In this document: positions 10,425 to 12,443 of the stretch, in pieces
How the letters are laid out: each line of letters opens with the position of its first letter
How positions within the stretch are numbered: position 1 is the stretch's first letter
From: Allorhodopirellula solitaria
Lineage (GTDB): Bacteria > Planctomycetota > Planctomycetia > Pirellulales > Pirellulaceae
DNA length: 64,000 bases
Direction: 5' to 3'
NCBI RefSeq assembly: GCF_007859855.1
Contig: NZ_SJPK01000001.1
Coordinates: forward strand, 738,091 to 802,090
The notes under the pieces: generated by a model
The model's database searches: none
Seen by the model: only the letters and a program-made list of their open reading frames with translations
What the model was told of the DNA's origin: nothing
Position numbers and translations under genes: made by a program

Positions 10425-10531
10425 CGCGTGATGGTGGCGACCCTTGCGACTGCAAGCTGTGAACCTGGTCAGGCCTTAACTGGAGCAGCCATAAGCAGTG
10501 CCGCTTTGTGTGAGGGTCGCCTCCACCGCGC
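10425..10531 (+). ncRNA. ffs: signal recognition particle RNA, small bacterial type
   Basis: The conserved SRP domain IV is visible: GGTCAGG (10468-10474) on the 5' side and AGCAGCC (10484-10490) on the 3' side. A long stem pairs GGTGGCGACCCT (10433-10444) with AGGGTCGCCTCC (10513-10524), with one U-U mismatch, and extends outward through CGCG/CGCG at 10425-10428 and 10527-10530. The apical loop is CC-UUAACU-GG rather than the usual GGAA tetraloop. Read as UAAC closed by a U-U mismatch, it fits the rarer URRC class. Position supports the call: the SRP RNA gene precedes dnaX-ybaB-recR in many bacteria. The RNA binds Ffh for co-translational targeting. Exact ends are estimated. Confidence 0.88.
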
Positions 10532-10598: not shown

Positions 10599-12443
10599 AT
10601 GGGCAATTCTGCGAGCGAACAGGAATCCGGGGACGACTCCTATGTCGTCGTCGCCCGTCGCTACCGACCGCGGGATTTCGACCAGCTCGTCGGCCAGGAT
10701 CACGTAGCCAAGGCGCTCCAAGGTGCGATCGAGACCTCGCGGGTCGGCCATGCCTATCTGTTCACTGGGGCTCGCGGTGTAGGCAAAACCAGCACCGCCC
10801 GGATTTTTGCCAAAGCGCTCAATCATCCCGGCGGCCCCACCTCGCATCCCGATAGCGAGAGCGACGTTGCCCAGGCGATCGATTCGGGCGAGGACGTCGA
10901 TGTGATCGAGATTGACGGGGCGAGCAACCGTGGGATTGATGAGATCCGCTCGCTGCGGGCCAATGTCGGCGTGCGGCCAAGTCGATCACGCTACAAAATC
11001 TACATCATCGACGAAGTTCATATGTTGACCGGGGCGGCATTCAACGCCTTGCTCAAAACGCTCGAAGAGCCCCCCGAGCACGTGAAGTTTATTTTCTGCA
11101 CCACCGATCCAGAAAAAATTCCGATCACCGTGCTCAGCCGCTGCCAGCGGTTCGATTTCGCACCAGTGGAATCCAGCAAGATTGTCGGCCGCCTGCGTGA
11201 GATCGTGGAGGCTGAGAACAGCACCGCGGAGGACGAGGCCCTGGAACTGATCGCCCGCCGGGCGGCTGGCTCGATGCGGGACAGCCAATCGCTGCTCGAA
11301 CAGGTGCTGAGTTTCAGTGATGGGCATCTGACGGCCGATCAAGTGCACGCGATGTTGGGCACCGCCGATGACCAACGCTTGCACCGACTCGCCCAGTCGA
11401 TGCAAGCTCGCGACGCCGCTGCGGCGCTCGCACAAGTCGACGAAGCCATCGCGGCGGGAGTCGACGCGGGACGGTTAACCGAACAGATGCTCGGCTACTT
11501 TCGCGATCTGATGACCGCGAGTGTGGGCTGCGATGCCTCCATGATGCGATATGCAGCGGGATCGATGCACGATTCACTCGTCGAATTGGGCCAGCAGTGG
11601 GGGTTGCAAACTGTGCTCGCGATCGTCGGCCTCGTCGACGAAACGCTGGTTCGGATCCGTCACAGCGTGCATGCTCGCGTGCTGTTGGAGTCGACCCTGA
11701 TTCAGATCTGCCATCTGCCGGATCTGCAAGCGATCGTCGACTTGACCGCCGCAGCCCAAGGGCTGGCATCGGACCGAGGCGAAAAAAAAAACGCGGTAGT
11801 TAAAGCCCGTCCCCCAGCGACACGTCCCGCAGCGACAGCCGTCGAGCCGGCCACACCGACGGCAGCGCCGCCCACAGCTTCTGCGGCTCCAGCGACGCCG
11901 CCAACAACGACAGCGCCGCCAATAAGCGCGTCTGCGGAGTCGACTCAGGCGACAGCGACGGCAGTCTCACCCTCGACTGCTCCGCCTAGCTCGGCCCAGG
12001 CGACGGAGAGCCCATCGCCGGCAGCGAACGGCTCGGCAGCACCGATTTCCGAAGCAGACCTGCAATCGGCCTGGCAACAGATTCTCGACGAGATGGATCC
12101 GATGACCGCAACCCTGGTCAAAGCCACCGAGAAAGTTGCCGTTGCCCAAGAAGGAACCGTCGAGCTGACGTTTCCCGAAGCAGCCGGGCTGGCGATGAGC
12201 CGATGCGGCTCACCGCAAAATAGAGACGAGATTGTTCGTACGATCGCCCGCGTTACCGGCCGACAGATTAACCTGAACATCGCAACGGGCACCAAAGCAC
12301 CACCGATTCCCCAGGCGGTTGCAAAACCAAAAACGCAAAACCGAATGCAGCGAATGCGAGAAATCGAATCCAACCCGATGGTCCGCGCCTGTATCGATTT
12401 GCTCGGTGCCGAAATCGTTCGTATCGATACCCCACGATCTTAA
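10599..12443 (+). CDS. dnaX: DNA polymerase III subunit tau/gamma
   Basis: 614 residues. Walker A GARGVGKTS is at 57-65, Walker B IIDEVHML around 136-143, and an SRC-type arginine finger in VLSRCQRFDF. This is the clamp-loader ATPase. The four cysteines that bind zinc in typical DnaX between the first helix and DVIEID are absent (LNHPGGPTSHPDSESD). Domain III ends near residue 390. A run of ten A (11782-11791, codons 395-398) follows, and both shifted frames stop within a few codons. A Pro/Ala/Thr-rich linker covers about 400-490, then a tau C-terminal domain. Start ATG 10599 lies 68 bp after the SRP RNA. Confidence 0.97.
   Translation: MGNSASEQESGDDSYVVVARRYRPRDFDQLVGQDHVAKALQGAIETSRVGHAYLFTGARGVGKTSTARIFAKALNHPGGPTSHPDSESDVAQAIDSGEDVDVIEIDGASNRGIDEIRSLRANVGVRPSRSRYKIYIIDEVHMLTGAAFNALLKTLEEPPEHVKFIFCTTDPEKIPITVLSRCQRFDFAPVESSKIVGRLREIVEAENSTAEDEALELIARRAAGSMRDSQSLLEQVLSFSDGHLTADQVHAMLGTADDQRLHRLAQSMQARDAAAALAQVDEAIAAGVDAGRLTEQMLGYFRDLMTASVGCDASMMRYAAGSMHDSLVELGQQWGLQTVLAIVGLVDETLVRIRHSVHARVLLESTLIQICHLPDLQAIVDLTAAAQGLASDRGEKKNAVVKARPPATRPAATAVEPATPTAAPPTASAAPATPPTTTAPPISASAESTQATATAVSPSTAPPSSAQATESPSPAANGSAAPISEADLQSAWQQILDEMDPMTATLVKATEKVAVAQEGTVELTFPEAAGLAMSRCGSPQNRDEIVRTIARVTGRQINLNIATGTKAPPIPQAVAKPKTQNRMQRMREIESNPMVRACIDLLGAEIVRIDTPRS
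11782..11803 (+). promoter_or_regulatory. A10 slippage site in dnaX, probable gamma-product signal
   Basis: Ten consecutive A residues sit at 11782-11791. Loss of one A, or a +1 shift, brings TAG at 11797-11799 into frame. Gain of one A, or a -1 shift, brings TAA at 11801-11803 into frame. Both would end the protein at about 398-401 residues, just after domain III, as expected for a gamma subunit. Thermus dnaX uses transcriptional slippage on a run of A, and E. coli uses ribosomal -1 shifting. Here the long homopolymer favours polymerase slippage, which is inference. Confidence 0.7.

Follow-up and report, generated by a model that had tools for sequence, protein, structure and literature searches.

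Does a run of ten adenines inside an open coding frame act as a decoding signal, or is it there for some other reason? The dnaX gene of Allorhodopirellula solitaria raises this question within the window analysed here, meaning the whole stretch of 64,000 nucleotides. With a probability of about 0.74, we interpret the run as a programmed slippage site of the transcriptional type found in Thermus, which would provide the gamma protein beside tau from a single gene.

The protein encoded by the gene matches the Pfam families DNA_pol3_delta2, DNAX_ATPase_lid and DNA_pol3_gamma3, with the domain III match stopping at residue 376, and NCBIfam agrees with Pfam on dnaX through a match to dnaX_nterm. 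Residues 14-305 can be aligned to chains labelled as gamma or tau of DNA polymerase III, among them 1jr3, which we take to be the E. coli chain. The gene order is SRP RNA, dnaX, ybaB and recR, and a search of Rfam around dnaX returned nothing apart from the SRP RNA.

Table 1. Features of the dnaX locus, and the two further A10 runs of the same genome
Feature	Position	Strand	Source
dnaX, tau reading frame, 614 aa (domains I-III, Pro/Ala/Thr linker, C-terminal tau part)	10599..12443	+	
SRP RNA gene (RF00169), directly 5' of dnaX	10433-10527	+	Rfam
A10 run, putative slippage site, codons 395-398 (GAA AAA AAA AAC)	11782..11791	+	sequence
TAG, +1 frame; would terminate products of A9 (399 aa) and A12 (400 aa) transcripts	11797..11799	+	
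TAA, -1 frame; would terminate A11 (401 aa) / A8 (400 aa) products or those of a -1 ribosomal shift	11801..11803	+	
Predicted gamma-coding region (399-401 aa)	10599..11803	+	computed
A10 in frame, PfaA-like synthase (open frame of 3248 codons; L247, L308)	G000:C10:65396-65405	-	
A10 at the junction of ThuA ORF and NPCBM-DUF7133 ORF (L248)	G000:C15:14328-14337	-	

Read from the ATG at 10599, the zero frame is GAA AAA AAA AAC GCG across the run, which puts the TAG in the +1 frame and the TAA in the -1 frame. The ten A residues and both stops lie exactly where an earlier note on this DNA had placed them. When the run length is varied by computation, the products have 400 (A8), 399 (A9), 614 (A10), 401 (A11), 400 (A12) and 615 (A13) residues; the range of 398-401 residues that had been estimated for gamma therefore holds as 399-401, and its lowest value falls away. 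In the mechanism that we propose, RNA polymerase would slip on the A10 run, so that messages with 10 A (or 13) would be translated into full-length tau, and those with other numbers of A would meet a stop a few codons on in the resulting frame. The truncated gamma of 399-401 residues would end about 20 residues beyond domain III, keeping the clamp-loader domains and leaving out the C-terminal part that is specific to tau. We infer the production of gamma, its origin in slippage by RNA polymerase rather than by the ribosome, and a slippage ratio; the role of gamma is presumed by analogy with Thermus.

Long A runs are rare in the genome from which the window comes (6,796,955 bases in 62 contigs). 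On both strands together there are 93 overlapping matches to eight A or T, representing 80 runs of at least eight, and 13 matches to A9, representing ten separate runs of at least nine, of which three have ten. The dnaX gene is thus the site of one of only three A10 runs in 6.8 Mb, the others being in a PfaA-like synthase and at a ThuA junction, and none of the seven A9 runs lies in sense orientation in any ORF of 200 codons. A10 is matched 35 times in total across the 13 genus genomes, and 11 of these matches are in dnaX. Selection against A runs is evident from a length of nine upward in a large share of bacterial genomes (PMC1088944, PMC5009743).

The earlier note had suggested aligning dnaX from other Pirellulaceae in search of a conserved A run with nearby stops, and this comparison bore out both. 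All 13 genomes of the genus have the run at the same place, as A10 in 11 and A9 in two. In the family, a run of A9-A11 is found in 95 of the 104 genomes with a readable site and in 56 of 61 genera. The search covered 149 genomes, 138 of which had dnaX at the cut-off used; together with seven more of the genus this gives 145 family genomes with a dnaX match, of which 108 were read and 104 have the site inside a contig, the excluded four (G139, G060, G151, G070) having a contig end that cuts the locus before the site. The run has been retained while the surrounding linker turned over. In one relative, G038 (L105), the dnaX gene contains two A9 runs with a single base between them.

Nine Pirellulaceae genomes in five genera lack the run (g19, three of three read; g34 and g23, two of two each; g21 and g60, one of one each; loci L081-L085, L335, L336, L338 and L339). 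No A run of at least seven was found in the linkers of these nine genomes, and no lysine tract was present at the site in the five genera, for each of which one genome was inspected. Since five genera do without it, the slippage device appears to be dispensable, and the need for gamma can therefore be studied by comparing relatives.

The single genome read from a sister family in the order (G268) has no run. Family f3 of the class has A9 or A10 in all 11 genomes read of 12 found, and among other families of the phylum, taken as one genome each, a run of at least nine occurs in eight of the 48 read (of 52). In a tree of 153 DnaX N-terminal regions, the run is present in 99 of the 105 rows of a well-supported clade corresponding to the class. 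This pattern fits a single gain in the class clade followed by several losses, in a tree that was built by a quick method, has many open forks and needs 12 changes overall, with separate occurrences elsewhere. Among the best 80 of 593 candidate loci in named genomes, which include some genomes already counted, the dnaX linker of 17 has A9 or A10. These 17 carriers include Aporhodopirellula aestuarii, Gemmata sp. IIL30 and a Schlesneria MAG. Another five of the 17 belong, according to their record titles, outside Planctomycetota (one Ignavibacteria, two Bacteroidetes, one Verrucomicrobia and one Opitutaceae).

That the stops near the run look selected, as had been suggested, now has statistical support, with stops of both shifted frames strongly over-represented close by. 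In the 95 genes that have both the run and an in-frame tau, the first stop of the +1 frame and that of the -1 frame each begin a median of 9 nt past the run, and both fall within 30 nt of it in 81 (85%). The corresponding null values are 8.5% when the distances are measured from other points farther along each linker and 9.2% when the downstream codons are shuffled. Four genes with tau out of frame were set aside before these statistics, and 11 genomes that count towards the presence of the run stay outside them. With one genome per genus and class genomes counted singly (n = 65), a stop within 30 nt is found in the +1 frame in 55, in the -1 frame in 63 and in both in 53. Rank tests gave p = 3.8e-8 (+1), 4.7e-12 (-1) and 5.9e-12 (both) for 64 of these genes; one gene had too few null positions, so that 94 of 95 were ranked in the full set. 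Relatedness inflates such p-values, and more weight belongs to the figures with one genome per genus. Stops are enriched in each frame taken by itself, the -1 stop more strongly than the +1 stop. By eye, the arrangement TAR-N-TAR, two stops four bases apart in two frames, was counted in 10 of the 13 genus genomes. Control A runs in sense orientation had both stops within 30 nt in none of six A8 cases and one of eight A6-7 cases, which argues, within small control sets (that for A8 covering 30 of the 93 matches, which make 27 runs), that dual stops do not generally accompany A runs. A chance origin of the dnaX A10 was considered and rejected, given the rarity of such runs in the genome and the enrichment of stops near this one.

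A different explanation is that the protein requires a lysine tract, for instance as a charged patch in the linker, and that the stops are incidental. The run does always encode two to three whole lysine codons, with no AAG breaking the tract. However, AAA makes up 918 of the 1856 lysine codons elsewhere in these genes (49%), and their mean third-position GC is 0.63, so a lysine tract conserved for its own sake should often contain AAG; at such usage one would not expect 95 of 104 genomes to keep the tract unbroken. The codon-use argument is an indirect one: possession of a run was what selected the genes, and any whole codon within an A run must be AAA. The associated log10 P of -70 assumes independent genes in that run-selected sample and is not a real probability. 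Other properties point to the nucleotide rather than the amino acid sequence. The starting phase of the run is 1 in 73 of the 95 genes, 2 in 15 and 0 in seven, the base after it is C, G or T, and its neighbours and its place within the linker vary between relatives. Together with the enrichment of stops in both frames and the lack of a lysine tract in the five run-less genera inspected, codon use and phase make the protein-level explanation scarcely credible.

The same stops could also produce gamma from faithful transcripts if ribosomes shifted to the -1 frame or slid along the A run. We consider this the less likely mechanism, yet a serious rival, and there are precedents for it. E. coli dnaX uses A_AAA_AAG (PMC5009743), and E. 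coli ribosomes slide on A runs in a cell-free system, where truncated product appears from three consecutive AAA lysines on and robustly at A11, and the sliding is perhaps bidirectional (PMC4363877). Sliding of this kind would also select for both stops. Even Thermus dnaX is said to bear a translational frameshift signature too (PMC4320859). Within our data, the stronger enrichment of the -1 stop is in keeping with -1 shifting, which could also reach the frame needed by seven of eight genes that have tau out of frame (all but G058). The sequence 3' of the run folds slightly more strongly than a control stretch does, with a mean z of -0.52 (p = 0.0017; 9 of 64 below -2) against -0.27 (p = 0.046; 2 of 65 below -2), so that a stem-loop may exist in some of the genes.

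Other elements expected of ribosomal shifting are sparse. A Shine-Dalgarno-like motif lies upstream in four of the 65 one-per-genus picks, compared with 12% of controls, and the window has GAGG immediately before the run. This GAGG is closer to the run than the usual Shine-Dalgarno spacing. The 3' side of the run in the window folds no better than shuffled sequences (z +0.49). In E. coli, where dnaX yields gamma from the tau gene through -1 programmed ribosomal frameshifting, the A-rich shift site lies, like the run here, in the linker after domain III. An in-frame A_AAA_AAG is found in six or eight of the 65 one-per-genus picks, depending on which of two draws of genomes is used, and is absent from the site in the window, whose heptamer is A_AAA_AAC. 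In E. coli that heptamer causes far less shifting (PMC5009743). The site in the window differs from E. coli dnaX in its heptamer, in having no detected Shine-Dalgarno-like stimulator or stem-loop, and in keeping a stop in the +1 frame as well. This last feature argues against classical -1 frameshifting, since a process confined to the -1 frame needs one stop only, yet the +1 stop is enriched too. Few stimulators together with a stop for which -1 frameshifting has no need favour slippage by RNA polymerase.

In a minority of genes the relationship between the frames is reversed. In G011, G004 and G112 (A9) and in G058 (A11), all Pirellulaceae, a stop closes the zero frame at once, and the long ORF lies in a different frame. 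This two-ORF layout may reflect assembly errors, as each of the four assemblies consists of several contigs and the respective genera have other members with tau in frame. Outside the class, A10 with tau out of frame is present in each of the four genomes found of family f47 (L320, L321, L322, L148), and there tau would require a change of frame, as in the two-ORF type of Antonov et al. 2013 (PMC3711429). Seven of these eight genes need the -1 frame, equivalent to one added A. G158 of family f6 combines A10 with an early zero-frame stop, and no other frame clearly holds tau. The two-ORF dnaX genes predicted by GeneTack to slip, in Chlorobi and others, have poly-A of 7-10 and reach tau through the frame change (PMC3711429); in the dnaX gene of the window, in contrast, the 614-aa ORF continues uninterrupted across the run, tau comes from the zero frame and it is gamma that would need slippage.

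Such cases bear on whether the run might be a mutable contingency tract, switching dnaX by phase variation of the DNA, or simply noise of assembly. Run length does vary among species, and all four out-of-frame Pirellulaceae genes come from multi-contig assemblies of genera that have in-frame members. Against noise, A10 is also present in single-contig genomes (G003, G012). As for contingency, dnaX is expected to be essential; an off state would then be lethal unless slippage restored tau, and phase variation does not require stops in both frames. Contingency or noise is accordingly a very improbable source of the run.

The closest parallel to the slippage site that we propose is found in Thermus thermophilus. 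There, as here, dnaX has one tau ORF with an A run of at least nine and stops nearby in both other frames, and the truncation yields gamma, the outcome that we predict for the planctomycete (PMC1088944, PMC5009743, PMC4320859). Slippage of the Thermus type also entails mRNAs that differ in their number of A and two DnaX proteins at about 1:1. In the dnaX gene of the window the run of at least nine is on the coding strand, with tau in the zero frame and stops close by in the two others. The two systems differ in that the Thermus run is A9 and the one here A10. The Thermus stops lie two and sixteen codons downstream (PMC4320859) and those here two and three codons past the run. Slippage was shown by experiment in Thermus, whereas here it is predicted from sequence.

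Slippage is an established mechanism for dnaX, shown in Thermus and predicted elsewhere by genome surveys, and the present work adds a probable clade-wide case with statistical support. Such use across a clade of planctomycetes was not found in the literature searched. A search of titles and the beginnings of abstracts, with most subscription journals outside its coverage, gave no report of slippage in planctomycete dnaX or in synthases of the kind described below. In the available portions of PMC3711429, PMC5009743 and PMC1088944, planctomycete terms occur only in the first, in a genome table.

If the same signature were active in other genes, planctomycetes would be a natural system for programmed transcriptional slippage, and we tentatively suggest that A10 could be a general decoding signal in these organisms, beyond dnaX. 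Were this true, RNA polymerase slippage would govern the balance between short and long forms of multidomain proteins in several pathways within a single organism. Apart from those in dnaX, the genus has 24 A10 runs: 19 are in sense orientation within open stretches of 200 codons or more, two are antisense and three lie in no such stretch. Both other-frame stops lie within 30 nt in 14 of the 19, compared with none of the six A8 and one of the eight A6-7 control runs, a count whose cases are not independent, as four at junctions were scored from the downstream frame and nine in synthases are relatives. With the 11 in dnaX, 25 of the 35 A10 runs are thus in long ORFs with stops placed for slippage.

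The nine synthase runs lie in proteins with carrier-domain repeats of a PfaA-like polyketide synthase, a name that rests on NCBIfam matches of L308 and L309 well below the model cut-off. Pfam identifies carrier domains in L247, L250, L254, L259 and L306, and L251, L255, L262 and L266 were assigned to the synthase by the sequence beside the run. The A10 is located between the carrier domains and the ketoreductase (KR), and all nine cases in the genus have stops in both other frames no more than 30 nt away. For any one of these sites the pair of stops is only mildly unusual, being matched by 4-15% of other positions in the same locus. The run is also A10 in the synthase of genus g12 (G023, G086; L310, L311), and the long open frames of the stretches read from six more distant homologues contain no A run of at least seven.

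Other proteins carry A10 in smaller numbers. An aminotransferase-condensation (NRPS) protein has it in two species (L304, L305), in a different phase within a gap-free alignment at 77% identity. At the ThuA and NPCBM-DUF7133 junction, found in three cases (L248, L257, L261), one inserted A would fuse the ORFs, which could also be two separate genes. Two further runs are single cases: the A10 of a SASA-domain protein, with both other-frame stops within 16 nt (L263), and one at the junction of a rhamnosidase ORF and a sulfatase ORF (L264).
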